From: Alphaproteobacteria bacterium
GTDB lineage: Bacteria; Pseudomonadota; Alphaproteobacteria; ATCC43930; CGMCC-115725
Assembly (NCBI GenBank): GCA_030041385.1
Contig: JASHNY010000079.1
Coordinates: forward strand, 1 to 32,925
Length of the DNA: 32,925 nucleotides
Reading direction: 5' to 3'
Below, piece by piece: positions 22,752 through 29,450 of the stretch; positions within the stretch are counted from its first letter, which is position 1; each line of letters starts with the position of its first letter. The position numbers were made by a program, and so were the translations under genes. The notes beneath the pieces are model-generated. The model had not been told where the DNA came from. It saw only the letters and a program-made list of their open reading frames with translations, and did no database searches.

Positions 22752-24941
22752 ATGGCGGATCTCGCGGTCGGGGACGGGAGGGCCGGGGCGGCGTCGGAAC
22801 GCCGCAACGGCCTTGCTGCCGTCGCCGCGATGCTGGCCGCCACGCTTGCGGCCGAAGGCGAACGCCGCATCCTGTGGCTGCCGGTGTGGTTCGGCAGCGG
22901 CATCGCGCTGTATTTCGCGCTGGTCGTAGAGCCGCCGGTATGGCTCGGGCCGGTCGCCGCGGCGGCGATGGGGGCGGCGGCGCTCGGCTGGCGACGACGG
23001 CCGGCGCTCGGCGCGGCCTTGCTGGCGCTGGCGCTGTGCGCCGCCGGGTTCACCGCGATCGAGCTCGCGCGCTGGCAATGCGGCGCGCCGATGCTGGACC
23101 ACCGCCTGGGGCCGGTCGCCATGACCGGCCGGGTGGTCGATATCGACACGCTCGACCGCGGCTGGCGCGTCATCGTCGCCCCCGACCCGCTGCCCGGGCT
23201 CGACCCCGACGAAGAGCCGGTGCTGGTGCGCATTCACATCGCCGCTGGCAGCGATCTGCTCGGGCCCGGCGACCGTATCGCGATGCGTGCGGTGCTCTAT
23301 CCGGTGCCGGCGCCGATCCTGCCTGGCGGCCGCGACATGCAGCGCGAATTGTATTTCGCCGGCATCGGCGCGGTCGGCTACAGCCTTGGGCCAGCATATC
23401 GCGCCGCGCCGGGCCGAGGCTTGAGGCCGGGTTGGCGCGAAGGGCTGTTGCGCCTGCGCACCGACATGACCCGCCGCATCAACGCCGTGTTGCCGGGCTC
23501 GACCGGCGGGGTCGCCGCAGCACTGATCACCGGCAAGCGCGGGACGATTTCGGAGCACGTCAAGGAGGCGTTTCGCGAGGCCGGCCTGTCGCATCTGCTG
23601 GCGATCGCCGGGTTGCATCTCGGGCTCGTCGGCGGGTTCGTGTTTTTCGCCGTGCGCGGCCTCCTGGCGCTGATCCCGCCGGTGGCGCTGCGCTTTCCGA
23701 TCAAGAAGATCGCCGCGCTGGCAACGCTCTGCGTGCTGTTCTGCTATCTGATGATCTCGGGCGCCGCCATTCCGACCCAGCGCGCCTTTGTGATGAACGG
23801 CATCGTGTTCGCTGCCGTGTTCTTGCGCCGGCTGCGCTTGTCGATGCGCATCTGCGCGCTGGCGGCGATGGTGGTGCTGGCGCTCGACCCGCCCTGCCTC
23901 ATCGGCGTCAGCTTCCAGATGTCGTTCGGCGCCGTCGTCGCGCTGATCGCGGTCTATGAAAGCTGGGGTTCCGAGCTTGCCGGCCTGTTGCGCCGCGGGC
24001 CGCCGCTGCGCCGGATTCTCGGCTACGGCGCTGCCATCGCGATCACCACCGTGGTCGCGACGATCGGCACCGAGCCGTTCGCGATCTACCATTTCCATCG
24101 CGTGGTCTTGTATTCGCCGCTGGCCAATCTGATCGCGGTGCCGATTTCGGCCGTGTGGACCCTGCCGTGGGGAGTCGTCGCCTGCCTGTTGATGCCGCTT
24201 GGCCTCGACCGGCTGGCGCTGGTGCCGATGGGCTGGGGCATCGATGCGACGATCTGGGTCGCCGAGCATGTTTCCTCGCTGCCGGCCAATCTGTGGGCGA
24301 CGCCGCGCCTGCCGATGGCGGGGCTGATCGCGATCGTCTGCGGCGGGTTGTGGCTGTGCCTGTGGCGACGGCGCTGGCGCTATTGCGGCCTCGTCGCGAT
24401 CGCCGCCGGGCTGGCGGCGATGGCGTTGACCCGCCCGCCCGACATCGTGATCGCCGATTTCGGCCGGTTTCTCGCCGCCCGCGCGCCGGGCGGCTATGCC
24501 GTGGCCGCGAGCGCGCAGGAAATCGACCGCTCGTTCTTTGCCTCCGAAACCGGCGCGGCGCTGGTGCCGTGGCCCGTGCCCGGCGCCCCCGCCGGCGATC
24601 TCGCTTGCGCCGATGCCGGAGGCTGCACCTACACGGCTGACGGATGGCGCGTCGCGATCGTCACCGCGGCAAGCGGGTTGCCGGTCGATTGCGCCACGGT
24701 CGACGCGATCGTCGCGCAGATTCCGGCCGGCTTCGCCTGCCGCCGCGTGGTCCCGGTCGCCGACCGCATCGACACCTGGCGCTACGGGGCGATCGGGTTG
24801 TGGCTGGGAAAGGCGGGCGTCACCCTCGAAAGCGCCAATTTGAGCCGCGGCGACCGGCCGTGGGTGCCACACCCGATCTCGCGCCGCGAGCGCGAACGCC
24901 GGCGCGAAGCGGCGGCGCGGCGCGCTATCCCGCCTGGTTGA
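22752..24941 (+). CDS. ComEC/Rec2-like membrane protein lacking a recognisable nuclease domain
   Basis: A 729-residue protein. The N-terminal part (about 1-240) fits DUF4131. The centre is the Competence domain, with GVAAALITGKRGTISEHVKE, FREAGLSHLLAIAGLHLGLV and LMISGAAIPTQRAFVMNGIV, plus many transmembrane spans. ComEC is the inner-membrane DNA channel of natural transformation. The C-terminal about 170 residues keep a soluble domain (PDIVIADFGRFLAAR onward) but have no HxHxDH metal site, as in several alphaproteobacterial homologues. The last codons (...RAIPPG, stop at 24939-24941) fall inside the left 30-bp repeat of the higBA insertion. Start ATG 22752 fits. Whether this strain is transformable is unknown. 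Confidence 0.88.
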   Translation: MADLAVGDGRAGAASERRNGLAAVAAMLAATLAAEGERRILWLPVWFGSGIALYFALVVEPPVWLGPVAAAAMGAAALGWRRRPALGAALLALALCAAGFTAIELARWQCGAPMLDHRLGPVAMTGRVVDIDTLDRGWRVIVAPDPLPGLDPDEEPVLVRIHIAAGSDLLGPGDRIAMRAVLYPVPAPILPGGRDMQRELYFAGIGAVGYSLGPAYRAAPGRGLRPGWREGLLRLRTDMTRRINAVLPGSTGGVAAALITGKRGTISEHVKEAFREAGLSHLLAIAGLHLGLVGGFVFFAVRGLLALIPPVALRFPIKKIAALATLCVLFCYLMISGAAIPTQRAFVMNGIVFAAVFLRRLRLSMRICALAAMVVLALDPPCLIGVSFQMSFGAVVALIAVYESWGSELAGLLRRGPPLRRILGYGAAIAITTVVATIGTEPFAIYHFHRVVLYSPLANLIAVPISAVWTLPWGVVACLLMPLGLDRLALVPMGWGIDATIWVAEHVSSLPANLWATPRLPMAGLIAIVCGGLWLCLWRRRWRYCGLVAIAAGLAAMALTRPPDIVIADFGRFLAARAPGGYAVAASAQEIDRSFFASETGAALVPWPVPGAPAGDLACADAGGCTYTADGWRVAIVTAASGLPVDCATVDAIVAQIPAGFACRRVVPVADRIDTWRYGAIGLWLGKAGVTLESANLSRGDRPWVPHPISRRERERRREAAARRAIPPG

Positions 24942-24951
24942 GCTTCAGGCC
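24922..24951. repeat. Left 30-bp direct repeat flanking the higBA insertion
   Basis: A 30-base stretch beginning GCGCTATCC and ending CTTCAGGCC. It matches 25891-25920 at 29 of 30 positions, differing only at the ninth base (C here, T there). It contains the comEC stop codon. Sequence identity ends abruptly on both sides. Inside it, GCCTG and CAGGC form five-base inverted arms around nine bases, a layout reminiscent of recombinase core sites, though it may be chance. Confidence 0.9.
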
Positions 24952-24984
24952 GTGGTAACCGCCTCCCACAACGGGATAATAGCC

Positions 24985-25013
24985 TTGCTCCCACACTGGG
25001 AGGAGCCTATACG
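24985..25013 (+). promoter_or_regulatory. Candidate higBA promoter with operator palindrome in its spacer
   Basis: TTGCTC (24985-24990) and TATACG (25008-25013) are exactly 17 bases apart. Inside and just upstream of the spacer is the inverted repeat CTCCCA-CAC-TGGGAG (24988-25002). A further half-site CTCCCACA occurs at 24963-24970. HigA-type antitoxins commonly repress their own promoter by binding such palindromes. Transcription would begin near 25020, leaving a leader of about 95 bases before higB. The pattern is clear; the function is inferred. Confidence 0.45.
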
Positions 25014-25114
25014 AGGTTGGCTGGATGTGCGATCTCAGCTGGATTTGTGCAGCAGGCGACCCGGGCGGGTGGGGCGCGCCGCCTTGAACCCGGGCAGGCG
25101 GGGCAGGATGAGCG

Positions 25115-25426
25115 ATGCAGGTTTTCAACAGCAACACGCTGCTGGCGTTTGGCAAGAGACATGCCGATGCCGATAAAGCGGTTCGGGAATTGAACAGAAC
25201 GTTACGGGCGGCGCGCTGGTCCAAGATGCAAGATATCGTCGATGCCTATCCTTCGGCGACAGTGTTGAACTCGGAACGGGTAGTGTTTAAGCTGAAGGGT
25301 AACGATTACCGAGCGATTGCAGCGTTTGATTTTCAAAGGCATGCGGTGTTTGTGAAATTTATCGGAACCCACGCTGAATACGATGCACTGAACGCATTGA
25401 CAGTCGATTTCTATTCAACCCGCTGA
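25115..25426 (+). CDS. higB: HigB-family toxin (mRNA interferase)
   Basis: A 103-residue RelE-superfamily toxin of the HigB type, expected to cleave mRNA at the ribosome. Family features are KRHADADKAVRELNRTLRAA (residues 14-33), ARWSKMQDIVDAYPSATVL, ERVVFKLKGNDYRAIAAFDF and the conserved C-terminal FVKFIGTHAEYDAL (79-92). Length is typical. The gene precedes its antitoxin, which is the usual order for hig systems. Base composition is clearly lower than in the neighbours: by my count 54 of 120 bases are G/C at 25261-25380. This supports horizontal origin. It lies within the segment bounded by 30-bp direct repeats. Confidence 0.92.
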   Translation: MQVFNSNTLLAFGKRHADADKAVRELNRTLRAARWSKMQDIVDAYPSATVLNSERVVFKLKGNDYRAIAAFDFQRHAVFVKFIGTHAEYDALNALTVDFYSTR

Positions 25427-25444
25427 CCGACAAGGTGGTCCGAC

Positions 25445-25885
25445 ATGAATGAAGCGCCGAAAACGATCGAGCCGGTTCGCGATGAAACGGGGCATCGCGT
25501 GGCATTGGCCGAGATCGAGCGGCTGTGGGGTGCAACACCAGGGACGCAGGAGGGCGATCGCCTGGACGTTCTGATGGCGCTCGTCGATACCTACGAGCGG
25601 GAACAATGGCCCGACGAAGATCTGGACCCGATCGACGCGATCGTGGCGCGGATGGAAAATTCGGGGCGCACTCGCAAGGAGTTTGAGGCGGTCATCGGGT
25701 CTTCCGGGAGAGCATCGGAAATCCTCAACCGCCGGCGACACCTGACATTGCCGATGATCTGGCGGTTGGTCCGGGAGTGGAAGATGTCGGCCGATGTCCT
25801 CGTGCGTCCGTACGCCCTTTCGCCGCACCCGAAAACGAACAAGCGTCGGCTATCGCGGCCGCGTCTTCATCGCGCCGCCTCGTAA
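25445..25885 (+). CDS. higA: HigA-family antitoxin with XRE-type helix-turn-helix
   Basis: A 146-residue DNA-binding antitoxin that should neutralise HigB and repress the operon. The N-terminal part reads ALAEIERLWGATPGTQEGDR and LDVLMALVDTYEREQWP. The helix-turn-helix follows at about 64-110 (DAIVARMENSGRTRKEFEAV, SGRASEILNRRRHLTLPMIW). Homologues normally end soon after ADVLVRPY; this one runs on for about 23 basic residues (ending RRLSRPRLHRAAS), and its stop is only a few bases before the right repeat. The tail may be an insertion-junction by-product. It starts 18 bp after the higB stop. Confidence 0.9.
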   Translation: MNEAPKTIEPVRDETGHRVALAEIERLWGATPGTQEGDRLDVLMALVDTYEREQWPDEDLDPIDAIVARMENSGRTRKEFEAVIGSSGRASEILNRRRHLTLPMIWRLVREWKMSADVLVRPYALSPHPKTNKRRLSRPRLHRAAS

Positions 25886-25890
25886 AATCG

Positions 25891-25920
25891 GCGCTATCTC
25901 GCCTGGTTGAGCTTCAGGCC
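25891..25920. repeat. Right 30-bp direct repeat flanking the higBA insertion
   Basis: Second copy of the repeat at 24922-24951, with one difference at the ninth base. It encodes, on the minus strand, the last residues GLKLNQAR and the stop (25894-25896) of the SMP-30 family gene. The left copy correspondingly encodes GLKLNQAG in the same reading frame, showing that it is a copy of this gene end. Confidence 0.9.
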
Positions 25921-26811
25921 CGGCGAGGGCCAGTCGGCGGCGACGAGTTTGCCGGTGCCGGCAAGGGTGATGTAGGCGGTTTTCATGTCCGCGCCGCCGA
26001 AGCAGATGTTGGTGGTGATCGGGTCCGGCATCTTGTGATGCTCGATGTGGCGGCCATCGGGCGAGATCACGGTGATGCCGCCATTGACCAAGGTGGCGAC
26101 GCAGATCCGCCCGTCCGCCTGCACCGCCAGCGAATCAAAGCGCTGATAGCCGCCCATGCCGGCGACCAGGCGGCCGCCATGCGGCGCCGGCGACTCCTGC
26201 TTTTTCAATATGCCGGGCGCCTCGATCGCGAATGCCCACAGCCGCGCCGCCTCGGTCTCGGCAACGTAGAGCGTGTTGCCGTCGGGCGACAGGCCGATGC
26301 CGTTCGGCGTCACCATCGGGTAGGCGAGTTCGACGATCGCCGAGCCGTCGAGCCGCGCGTAATAGACCCCGCCGCGGTCCCAGTCGCGCGCCCGCCCCTT
26401 GCCGAGGTCGGTGAAATAAACCCCGCCATGGGCATCGATGACGAGATCGTTCGGCCCTTTCAGCCGATGGTCGCCGCAGGCGCGGTAGAGCCATTCGGTG
26501 GCGCCGGTGTGCAAATCGACCCGCTCGATGCGGCCGCTGACATAGTCGCGGGCCTGCACGGTCGGCCGCCGGAGGCCGCCGACCATCGCCCATTCGAAGC
26601 CGCCATTGTTGGCGATGTAGCATTTGCCGTCGGGGCCGATAGCGGCGCCGTTGGGGCCGCCGCCGGTTTGCGCGACGACCGTACGCGTGCCGTCGGCGGC
26701 GATCCGGGTCAAGGCGCCGGCCGCGATCTCGACCAGGATCACCGAACCGTCGGCGAGCGCGACCGGCCCCTCGGGGAACAGCAGCCCCTCGGCCAGGGTG
26801 CGGACCTCCAT
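25894..26811 (-). CDS. SMP-30/gluconolactonase/LRE family beta-propeller hydrolase
   Basis: A 305-residue six-bladed beta-propeller lactonase-like protein. Metal-ligand candidates are Glu14 in LLFPEGPV, the Asn of GGGPNGAAIG, the Asn of LKGPNDLVID and the Asp of the later blade. VTPNGIGLSPDGNTLYVAET is typical of the family. Members hydrolyse sugar or other lactones. The start ATG 26811 has GGGGAGG upstream; the open frame extending to 26865 overlaps the preceding gene. It follows a Rieske-type gene by 14 bp on the same strand, implying one operon. The last eight codons lie in the right repeat of the higBA insertion. Confidence 0.9.
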   Translation of the reverse strand: MEVRTLAEGLLFPEGPVALADGSVILVEIAAGALTRIAADGTRTVVAQTGGGPNGAAIGPDGKCYIANNGGFEWAMVGGLRRPTVQARDYVSGRIERVDLHTGATEWLYRACGDHRLKGPNDLVIDAHGGVYFTDLGKGRARDWDRGGVYYARLDGSAIVELAYPMVTPNGIGLSPDGNTLYVAETEAARLWAFAIEAPGILKKQESPAPHGGRLVAGMGGYQRFDSLAVQADGRICVATLVNGGITVISPDGRHIEHHKMPDPITTNICFGGADMKTAYITLAGTGKLVAADWPSPGLKLNQAR

Positions 26812-26825
26812 GGCCGCCTCCCCGG

Positions 26826-27740
26826 CTAGTTGCGCACCGGGGTTGACAGCGCCGACCAGTACCACTCGTAGAACGGGCGCTTGAGCGCGGTCAGCGGCGC
26901 CGCCTCGACGGCGGCGGCTTCGTCGCGCAATGCGGCGGCGATGCGGTCGTCATGGAACCCGTCGGTTGCCGGCGCGCCGGGCCGGGCGATGCGCACCAGT
27001 TCGATGTCGGTATGGGCGGGAAAGCGCGGGACGAGGCGGCACAGCACGGCGTCTTCGCCTTGCAGCGCGAGGAAGCTCAGCGGGCCGAATTCGACCGCCG
27101 CATCGCACTCCCCGGCGGCGAACGCCAACTCCTTCGCGTGCCACAGGAATTGCCGCAAATGCTTCCAGTTCCAGGTGGTCGGATAGCGCTGACGGCGGGC
27201 GACCACGCGATCGCCGAGATCCTCGGGCACCGCGCCGACATCGACCTCTCCGGGCGCGGGCGGGTTTGGCGCGGCCAGCGACAGATCGACGAAGATCAGG
27301 CCGCGGCGGACCTGCATCGCATAGCGCGGCAGGCGAAAGCGCGAACGGTCCTCCTGGTCGGGCCGCAGCACCGGGTCGGTCAGCCGCCCGTCAAGCGCAT
27401 AGTCCCAGGCGTGATAATTGCAGAACAGGTGGTTGCCCTTGCCGTCCTCCTCCTCGCAGATGCGGTAGCCGGCGTGGAGGCAGGCGTTGCGCAGCGCATG
27501 CAGGCAGTCCGCCCGCTCGCGCACCAGCACGACCGAGCGGCTGCCCATGTCGATGCGGAAATAGCTGTTGTCTTCACCGAGCCGGCTGTGATGATCGACC
27601 GCCAGCCAGGGGCGCACGAAAACCTGCGAAAGCTCGGCGCTGAACACTTCGTAGGCGTCGAACAGATCGGGGGTGGCGACAATGTCGCCACCGGCCTCCA
27701 GCTGTGCGCCGATGCTTTCGACGGGTTCGGGAAGATCCAT
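26826..27740 (-). CDS. Rieske-type protein with degenerate catalytic domain
   Basis: A 304-residue relative of ring-hydroxylating oxygenase alpha subunits. The Rieske 2Fe-2S ligands are all present: Cys87 and His89 in CLHAGY, Cys107 and His110 in CNYHAWDY. The next conserved block, which normally reads NWKxxxEN followed by YHxxxxH, is NWKHLRQFLWHAKELAF (191-207). The Glu-Asn and the His pair that bind mononuclear iron are not recognisable. The protein is also about 100 residues shorter than typical oxygenases. It may be an electron-transfer or regulatory paralogue, or a decaying enzyme. It is upstream of and probably co-transcribed with the SMP-30 gene. ATG 27740 is the start. Confidence 0.8.
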   Translation of the reverse strand: MDLPEPVESIGAQLEAGGDIVATPDLFDAYEVFSAELSQVFVRPWLAVDHHSRLGEDNSYFRIDMGSRSVVLVRERADCLHALRNACLHAGYRICEEEDGKGNHLFCNYHAWDYALDGRLTDPVLRPDQEDRSRFRLPRYAMQVRRGLIFVDLSLAAPNPPAPGEVDVGAVPEDLGDRVVARRQRYPTTWNWKHLRQFLWHAKELAFAAGECDAAVEFGPLSFLALQGEDAVLCRLVPRFPAHTDIELVRIARPGAPATDGFHDDRIAAALRDEAAAVEAAPLTALKRPFYEWYWSALSTPVRN

Positions 27741-27866: not shown

Positions 27867-29450
27867 TCAGTGCTCCGGCTCCTTTCTCTCCTCGGGCCGG
27901 GCTGCCGGATGCGGCGGGGCCGGATGGGGAGCAGCGGCCGGATGGGGCGGAGCGGCCGGATGCGGAGGCGCGACGGGGTGAGGGGCTGCGACCGGGCGTG
28001 GCGGCGCCATCGGGTGCGGCGGCGCTGGCCGTTGTGGAAATGCCGCGGGACGGGATTCAGGATGCGGCAGCGCCGGCCGGGCCTCCGGGTGCGGCGTCGC
28101 AGGACGCGCTTCGGGGTGGGGCACGACGGGATGGGCTGCCGGAATGGCCTGGTGTATTTCCGGACCGCCCGGGTGCGGTGCGGGTCCGCGCGGATGCACG
28201 ATCGCAGCGCCCGGGCGGGTTGCCGACGGACCCGGATGCGCGGGCGGTGCACCGGGATGCGGTTGCGCACCGCCCGGATGGATCGCCGGTGCCCCCGGAT
28301 GGATTGCGGTGACGCCCGGATGGATTGCGGTGACGCCCGGATGGATCGCGGGGGCGCCCGGATGGATTGCCAGTGCACCCGGATGCGCTATCGGGGTGCC
28401 GGGATGGGCCGGCGGTGCGCCCGGATGGGGTGCCGGCCCGCCGGGGTGGGTCGCGAGCGGCCGCGCCGCCGCAGGAATGCCGGGACGCCCCGGTTGCCGC
28501 CGGATCGCGCCGGGGTCGATCGTGCCGGGCGGATGCCCGGCCGCGCGCACCGGCGGGTGCGGCCTTGCCGCGACCGGAACCGGCGCCACCGGCGCCGTGC
28601 GCCGCCAGGTGTTGTTCTGGATGCGGATGTGGTTCTGCGTGGTGTAGCTCGTCCGGGTGATCCTGTCGTAGCGGCCCGGGTCGATGACCATCTCGTGGCG
28701 GTGCCAATCGGGGTGGCCCCAGCCCCATAGCGGGTGGACGATGCCGAACCCGACGCTGAACCCGATGACGGCGCCGAGGGCGAAATTGTCGGGGACGAAC
28801 CCGACCGGCGGCGGCAGATAGACCGGCGGGTAGTCGGTGTACGGCCAGGCGCCGTACACCACCGCGGGGTTGTAGACCGGAACATAGACGACGGCCGGGT
28901 TGGCCGGCTCAATGATGATCTCCGGCCCTTGATGCACGACCCGAATCTGCGCGTTGGTGGCGAGCTTGCCGGCCGCGGCCGCGCGGTCGCGCAGGTATTG
29001 CACCTGCGCCATCACCGCGACCTGTCCGTTCGCGAAGGCGAGGCCGAGATCCTCGGTCCATTCGAGATGGGCGTTCATCATCGCGATGATCTGCGGGAAG
29101 GCGACCAGCGACTTGACGCTCGGGTCCCACGGCAGTGGCGCCAGCGCACTGGCCAGCGCATCGCCCTTCAGCGCGGCGTTGTTGGGATCCTGCAGCCACT
29201 GCCCGGCCGCAACCACCTGCTGCGGGAATGTCGCGGCCATCAGCAGCTGCATCAGCAACTGGTCGGGGTAGAGCGCGATCGGCGCCAGCATCTGGTCGAG
29301 CTGCGCCCTGGTAAAGCTCGGTGCCGGGTTCAGCGCCGCCGCCGCCTCGGCCGCGGAGGGCGGCTGCATCTGTTGCGCATAGCCCGCCGCCGGCAACACC
29401 AACAGGAACGGCAGCGCTTGGTGCAACAGCCTGAACCGAAATGCCTTCAT
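27867..29450 (-). CDS. Secreted DUF3300 protein with His-Pro-Gly heptapeptide repeat tail
   Basis: A 527-residue exported protein. Signal peptide is about 1-25 (LLHQALPFLLVLPAAGYAQ). The DUF3300 domain spans about 46-258 (FTRAQLDQMLAPIALYPDQL, PNNAALKGDALASALAPLPW, NPAVVYVPVYNPAVVYGAWP). From 335 to 440 a His (Arg at 412) recurs every seven residues, mostly as HPG; three nine-residue HPEARPA-type units then follow (445-463), and the tail is PHP-rich. The start ATG 29450 has GAGG upstream and begins MKAFRFRLL; 14 further residues are open upstream. Family function is unknown. The tail may bind metal or cell-wall material, which is inference. It is divergent from the VOC dioxygenase gene. Confidence 0.85.
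   Translation of the reverse strand: MKAFRFRLLHQALPFLLVLPAAGYAQQMQPPSAAEAAAALNPAPSFTRAQLDQMLAPIALYPDQLLMQLLMAATFPQQVVAAGQWLQDPNNAALKGDALASALAPLPWDPSVKSLVAFPQIIAMMNAHLEWTEDLGLAFANGQVAVMAQVQYLRDRAAAAGKLATNAQIRVVHQGPEIIIEPANPAVVYVPVYNPAVVYGAWPYTDYPPVYLPPPVGFVPDNFALGAVIGFSVGFGIVHPLWGWGHPDWHRHEMVIDPGRYDRITRTSYTTQNHIRIQNNTWRRTAPVAPVPVAARPHPPVRAAGHPPGTIDPGAIRRQPGRPGIPAAARPLATHPGGPAPHPGAPPAHPGTPIAHPGALAIHPGAPAIHPGVTAIHPGVTAIHPGAPAIHPGGAQPHPGAPPAHPGPSATRPGAAIVHPRGPAPHPGGPEIHQAIPAAHPVVPHPEARPATPHPEARPALPHPESRPAAFPQRPAPPHPMAPPRPVAAPHPVAPPHPAAPPHPAAAPHPAPPHPAARPEERKEPEH
28131..28448. repeat. 21-bp-period minisatellite inside the DUF3300 gene
   Basis: The stretch encoding residues 335-440 repeats with a strict 21-base period. 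The best-conserved units lie around 28290-28370 (GGATGGATTGCGGTGACGCC recurs). The perfect seven-codon register over about 16 units, with variable codons between, suggests repeated unit duplication followed by drift and makes length variation between strains likely. Confidence 0.85.

Follow-up and report, generated by a model that had tools for sequence, protein, structure and literature searches.

In this work we analysed a 32,925-nucleotide stretch of an alphaproteobacterial genome (contig JASHNY010000079.1 of assembly GCA_030041385.1, positions 1 to 32,925; called here the window), in which a small toxin–antitoxin (TA) operon, higBA, separates two convergent genes, comEC and SMP-30. The operon inserted in this lineage with duplication of its target, and the duplication rebuilt the ends of both genes; the event is confirmed as a real, self-sparing TA-operon insertion. 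Long direct repeats are found in excess around other higBA operons, and repeat-flanked insertion of TA operons is probably recurrent and not a one-off.

The higBA insertion between comEC and SMP-30

The inserted unit is bounded by two direct copies of a 30-bp segment, at 24922–24951 and 25891–25920 (both forward strand), which are identical at 29 of 30 bases and start 969 bp apart, and which end sharply, since the bases flanking the two copies are unlike each other. The 30-bp repeat has two matches only in the 4.39-Mb source genome of the window (G000, 264 contigs) when up to three mismatches are allowed. The left copy contains the final codons and the stop of a comEC/Rec2-like gene (22752–24941, forward strand; Pfam PF03772, Competence, E = 2.2e-65) and the right copy holds the end of an SMP-30/gluconolactonase-like gene (25894–26865, reverse strand; PF08450, SGL, E = 1e-48); the open reading frames (ORFs) of both genes are intact. 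Removing one copy in silico leaves gene ends RRAIPPG* and LKLNQAG* that overlap by 17 bp, a length that the duplication exceeds by 3 and 10 bp at its two sides; for both genes to stay whole, a duplication has to span at least this overlap. The repeat score in the window is 27, and a score of at least 25 was reached at 0 of 334 shifted positions of the same geometry in the surveyed stretches. The initial annotation of the window had described 29/30 repeats with sharp ends, a left copy completing comEC, a right copy completing SMP-30 and a 17-bp gene overlap without the insert, all of which are borne out by the recomputed match and the differing outside bases, by the ORF positions, and by the in silico joining together with one of the relatives described below.

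The comEC/SMP-30 junction was searched for in 60 relatives. comEC adjoins SMP-30 in two genomes of the same genus, and elsewhere the genes lie on separate contigs or were not found; when the eight closest of 14 SMP-30 loci were inspected, comEC stood beside SMP-30 in these two genomes only, and each of the 14 named loci retrieved with SMP-30 is a metagenome-assembled genome (MAG) record. In the first of the two, G004 (L033; L366, MAG contig VAZF01000511.1), the ends of comEC (915) and SMP-30 (899) overlap by 17 bp, and the junction carries the segment once, with 22 of 30 bases as in the left copy of the window, and lacks higBA. Joining the flanks of the window through one repeat reproduces G004, with its 17-bp overlap and an SMP-30 protein ending LKLNQAG*. 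This is the empty site with a single 30-bp copy that the initial annotation had proposed to look for, and it implies that higBA inserted in the window lineage and that the target was duplicated. In the second genome, G003 (L034; JAFAWI010000254.1), the two genes are separated by 106 bp of unrelated palindromic DNA without higBA, and one copy of the segment is found on the SMP-30 side (again 22 of 30 bases as in the left copy), with no second copy. Because one copy is kept and no second is present, G003 appears to represent a separate event at the same junction, which, to judge from these sequences, seems to have been struck twice by different DNA. The G003 spacer (L034:1161-1266, 106 bp, CCCTCACC...GGTGAGGG) may be a mobile palindromic repeat. 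No relative carried both repeats without higBA; the other arrangement that the initial annotation had held against an insertion, unrelated sequence between the two genes and no 30-bp identity, is seen in part in G003, where the spacer is unrelated and one copy is kept. At position 9 of the repeat the left copy has C, as in G004 and G003, and the right copy has T, unlike both.

The inserted unit (24952–25890, forward strand) is 939 bp long, has a G+C content of 0.589 compared with 0.672 for the window, and holds the higBA operon and its upstream region only, as the initial annotation had noted. higB (25115–25426, forward strand) is predicted to encode a 103-amino-acid RelE-like mRNA interferase toxin (PF09907, E = 7.5e-24; 84.2 bits for a cut-off of 27), which also matches PADLOC PD-Lambda-2_A (E = 1.3e-25) and, at E about 0.001, three HigB sequences of the PDB (5ifg, E = 0.0011). 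higA (25445–25885, forward strand) is predicted to encode a 146-amino-acid antitoxin (PADLOC PD-Lambda-2_B, HigA-like, E = 1.4e-29) with homologs that are 28–67% identical and adjoin HigB in relatives; its helix–turn–helix is weakly detected (Pfam HTH_3, E = 0.17, below the cut-off), and HigA had no match among PDB sequences. With a predicted HigB-family toxin and an adjacent downstream HigA-like antitoxin, the unit qualifies as a type II TA operon, HigBA. A perfect 6-bp dyad, CTCCCACACTGGGAG (24988–25002), located 112 bp ahead of the higB start, is a candidate HigA operator; similar palindromes were recognized by eye upstream of higB in four of the loci surveyed below (L118, L120, L139 and L153), nearer to higB than in the window. 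This palindrome lies 36 bp from the left repeat and the higA stop falls 5 bp short of the right repeat. The last ~22 residues of HigA (window 25820–25885) are basic and reach beyond the ends of most homologs; this tail is possibly a read-through into sequence gained at the insertion end.

The unit is not on a known mobile element. No integrase or transposase family was detected among the 25 window ORFs scanned with Pfam, the other ORFs of the window having not been scanned, and for these 25 the initial statement that no recombinase is present holds. A transposon, an insertion sequence or a miniature inverted-repeat transposable element was rejected, as there are no terminal inverted repeats (best terminal match 6 of 10 bases) and the duplication is 30 bp long. 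As regards an integron cassette or a pdif module, with an attC fold or dif-like sites at the ends, the repeat looks by eye like coding sequence of gene ends and lies only 5 bp from higA. The segment had no DNA match in 72,556 plasmid records, and HigA relatives were present in 6 of 50,697 phage records, all below 60% identity. The upstream region of the insert had no second copy in 61 genomes (best non-self match 33 bp at 88%), and HigA used as a query against genome contigs found no relative. The anti-phage system PD-Lambda-2, in which HigB and a long HigA-like partner are joined by a third gene, was also rejected: HigA covers only positions 4–122 of a 402-position model, and the insert has no third gene.

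Direct repeats around other toxin–antitoxin loci

We surveyed 61 HigB loci, namely the window, 49 from a class-wide search and 11 from the HigA family. From 59 HigB matches, 50 were used (the 49 and the window), those omitted being an additional match in G226 and eight that were weak or truncated; from 17 HigA matches, 11 were added, G016 and G000 being already included and four without an adjacent HigB omitted; the position of HigB is approximate in three of the family loci (G030:C54, G006:C380 and G011:C145). At the main threshold, a score of at least 22 for direct repeats enclosing the operon, repeats were found at 8 of the 61 loci (window, L116, L118, L120, L127, L135, L139 and L153), with lengths of 28–62 bp (30 bp in the window). 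As its repeat was the reason for selecting the window, the fair figure is 7/60. The same threshold was reached at 5/70 PemK/MazF loci, in two of which the repeats are flanking paralogs (6/70 loci at score 20), at 0/70 loci of GFA, a non-toxin accessory family, and at 1/334 shifted positions in the same stretches. Without the window, HigB loci differ from GFA loci (7/60 compared with 0/70, Fisher p = 0.004), in sets that are not genome-matched (GFA from 190 genomes, PemK from 385, each made of 30 loci plus the next 40 by rank, the best 70 of longer match lists) and with a GFA gene that is shorter than a TA pair. They also differ from the shifted positions (1/334, p = 1e-5), a control that omits positions near a tandem array of the window (1/338 when these are included) and whose geometry is one-sided while that of the family comparison is symmetric, HigB giving 8/61 either way. 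A smaller scan had found repeats at 3 of 14 loci. This excess of long direct repeats around other higBA operons makes repeat-flanked insertion of TA operons probably a recurrent event.

The repeats come from various kinds of sequence. At L135/L052 the repeat stems from the end of an oxidoreductase gene, which we label xanthine-dehydrogenase-like, one copy lying in the intact gene and the other being a fragment. At L139/L056 the 28-bp repeat derives from the start of a cation-efflux gene, the left copy being a relic; this gene lies downstream of higA, and as its likely GTG start and the higA stop overlap (GTGA, 1854–1857), the insertion may have coupled the translation of the two. In L127 a perfect 30-bp palindromic sequence flanks higBA on either side, and the L120 repeat is taken from the end of a small ORF, which reads as helix–turn–helix-like and has no Pfam match. 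Among mazEF loci, the repeat of L283 is 43 bp of the gatB end, and each of the two copies that enclose mazEF finishes in a GatB-like tail with a stop; that of L320 comes from the start of an Rrf2 gene and is 32 bp long. In L127 (L127:5237-5342, G306:C5) we also observed a repeat of ~105 bp between higB and higA, with several further genomic copies at 88–91% identity.

Several results weigh against a recurrent insertion with duplication of the target. The shifted control climbs to 3/334 at score 20 and 4/334 at score 18. Inspection led to the rejection of certain loci as clean duplications: in L153 higBA lies between CRISPR-like repeats (labelled by eye), in L116 the repeat is the end of a gene that has a 95% second copy nearby, and in L284 and L291 mazEF is flanked by paralogous genes. 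The 48-bp intergenic repeat of L295, not among the rejected ones, possibly belongs to a repeat family. With clean cases only, picked by judgement after inspection, HigB loci without the window drop to 5/60 (p = 0.019 compared with GFA, 4e-4 compared with shifted positions), and HigB and PemK together give 8/130 (p = 0.052 and 2e-4, respectively). PemK alone does not differ significantly from GFA (5/70, p = 0.058; clean cases 3/70, p = 0.24). Empty sites were sought for L139, L127, L118 and L116 and none was found, nor was one found for L135, in a search made with the oxidoreductase flank plus a portion of the insert, the other flank being compared with ten loci; the empty site of the window locus is the only one proven.

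L228 was also set aside as a weak case, with a score of 20. In L153 (51-1440, G267:C507) higBA sits amid the CRISPR-like array, whose repeats are about 36 bp long, and resembles a giant spacer. L284 (G128) and L291 (G331) belong to one genus, and the two paralogous genes that enclose mazEF there are presumably proline-racemase-like.

A higBA operon of Escherichia coli offers a partial parallel. HigB of E. coli K-12 belongs to the same family as HigB of the window (PF09907, E = 3.6e-22), and a PF09907 search over 14 control genomes gave no match in the E. coli genome among them. As in the window, K-12 higBA lies between convergent genes, fadH and rlmG, with direct copies on both sides; these are REP-like, 21 bp long, 81% alike and 939 bp apart. 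A fadH–higAB–rlmG query was covered over at least 80% at one place in 4342 of 5426 E. coli genomes, and the three strains without higBA that were compared (UTI89, N1131 and 19SZHZ663Rt) have one REP-like block in a gap of 117 bp. Unlike in the window, the repeat is of a genome-wide type, which we take to be REP, and a duplication made by insertion cannot be separated here from recombination between repeats. Since such elements presumably occur throughout the genome, the E. coli case is only suggestive.

How the operon could have been inserted

We consider it rather probable that a bare TA operon was inserted at the comEC/SMP-30 overlap by break-repair capture or template switch, and was then maintained by selection and addiction. 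The operon, consisting of the upstream region with its operator-like palindrome, higB and higA, would have entered the 17-bp overlap either as foreign DNA captured at a staggered break or through a template switch resuming about 30 bp behind the departure point, and both processes would yield direct duplications of variable length. Selection would then retain those landings whose duplication restores the damaged neighbour genes, and the addictive operon would resist loss between the repeats. We infer the break, the template switch and the addiction, as well as the lack of any dedicated recombinase in the event. Since the repeats have no attachment sequence in common and elsewhere also derive from gene starts and from a palindrome, a long target duplication fits better than a dedicated attachment site, except at tRNA-Val.

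Alternatively, the two repeats could be attL and attR sites left by a tyrosine recombinase supplied in trans, or higBA could be the last remnant of a larger integrative element from which the integrase was deleted and only the addictive pair retained. Gene 3' ends are commonly targeted by integrases, and the insertions of integrative and mobilizable elements and of genomic islands leave direct repeats by which the target gene regains its 3' end, as here. The best evidence for this model comes from a tRNA-Val gene that looks, from the arrangement of the sequences, like an integrase site, and so argues against capture without a recombinase. In G200 (L118), higBA lies behind tRNA-Val with a 33-bp repeat covering the tRNA 3' end; in G426 (L189/L380), a sister species of the same genus, a MazEF pair (PemK, E = 1.6e-22; MazE, E = 2.1e-12) has the same tRNA-Val on one side and a 37-bp copy of the tRNA 3' end on the other; and G070 has a 47-bp copy 49 kb from tRNA-Val. 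The G200 higBA and G426 mazEF units, each of ~1 kb and delimited by a repeat of the tRNA 3' end, thus occupy one tRNA-Val site. However, elements of this type bring an integrase of their own or use that of another element, and they return to a fixed site, neither of which was found for the window locus: no integrase family is present among the 25 window ORFs or among the seven ORFs of L118 (higA included, two being of doubtful coding value), whole genomes having not been searched and only the TA pair having been scanned in G426. The distances of 5 bp between higA and the right repeat and of 36 bp between the palindrome and the left repeat leave no visible scar of a larger element. Furthermore, the repeats of different loci, which include gene starts and a palindrome, have no sequence in common: in pairwise comparison of nine repeat sets no shared word was longer than 8 bp, a length matched or exceeded in 168 of 200 shuffles, and a common attachment site was therefore rejected. 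The reading given in the initial annotation is supported in part: the insertion and its self-sparing character are upheld by the empty site of G004, and the possible site-specific recombination finds no attachment sequence common to the repeats. An integrase origin is in our opinion unlikely, though not to be dismissed; as a rival it is strong at tRNA-Val and weaker in the window.

Homology-based capture, in which a circular or linear donor carrying higBA and a relative's comEC/SMP-30 junction recombined at 30 bp of homology, seems improbable to us. The right copy differs at one base from both relatives while the left copy agrees with them, as expected if the right copy is derived from a donor, but this single difference is equally expected from a later mutation. 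The E. coli operon, between REP-like repeats of which three strains without higBA keep one block, would suit such an exchange; for the window, however, the model needs a donor with higBA beside this gene end, and none was found among the 60 relatives. Finally, a misassembly could have joined a foreign higBA fragment to the MAG at a 30-bp repeat. The 14 named SMP-30 loci are all MAG records, G000 is in 264 contigs and the G+C of the insert deviates; nevertheless, the repeat encloses both gene ends as an insertion predicts, the expected genes are found on both sides, and a 30-bp repeat is short compared with usual assembly k-mers, all of which makes an assembly artefact very improbable.

Known insertion systems and further features

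Capture of a bare operon with a long target duplication has a counterpart in restriction–modification (RM) systems. For some of these, an 'insertion with long target duplication' has been proposed, in which the duplicated target varies in length and is of the order of 100 bp (PMC3874152, citing Nobusato 2000 and Furuta 2010), as is likewise stated in PMC3031569. The likeness lies in an addiction-type unit that is unlinked to a known mobile element, and in a direct target duplication that is unusually long, apparently variable and deduced from genome comparison. The differences are that the cargo is RM instead of a type II TA pair, that repeats of ~100 bp compare with 28–62 bp here, and that gene ends are rebuilt here. 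Direct repeats also flank a mycoplasma TA pair, and the authors of that report took them for scars of earlier recombination (PMC8562856); it is a single pair, and the accessible part of that report describes no empty site, target duplication or gene sparing. Our search of the literature, made on titles and abstract openings with few subscription journals covered, found no report of long target duplication as a recurrent trait of type II TA systems.

The spread of solitary chromosomal TA operons between genomes is an open question, usually answered by invoking plasmids, phages and islands. An empty site, together with a countable excess of repeats at HigB loci compared with a non-TA control, makes the mobility of TA operons measurable, and a duplication that offsets the damage to the target genes suggests a route of entry into tightly packed genomes. 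We propose, tentatively, that small type II TA operons (higBA, mazEF and perhaps others) could be mobile units without a recombinase, which would land as an operon with its promoter at gene ends, with long duplications that rebuild the genes, and would be kept by their addictiveness. If this is true, recombinase-free mobile TA operons would be the counterpart of RM insertion and a general answer to the spread of solitary TA operons.

Outside the inserted unit and its neighbours, the window contains, at 28124–28459, the tandem array mentioned above, which has a period of 21 bp and for which 11 overlapping copies of 63 bp were listed.

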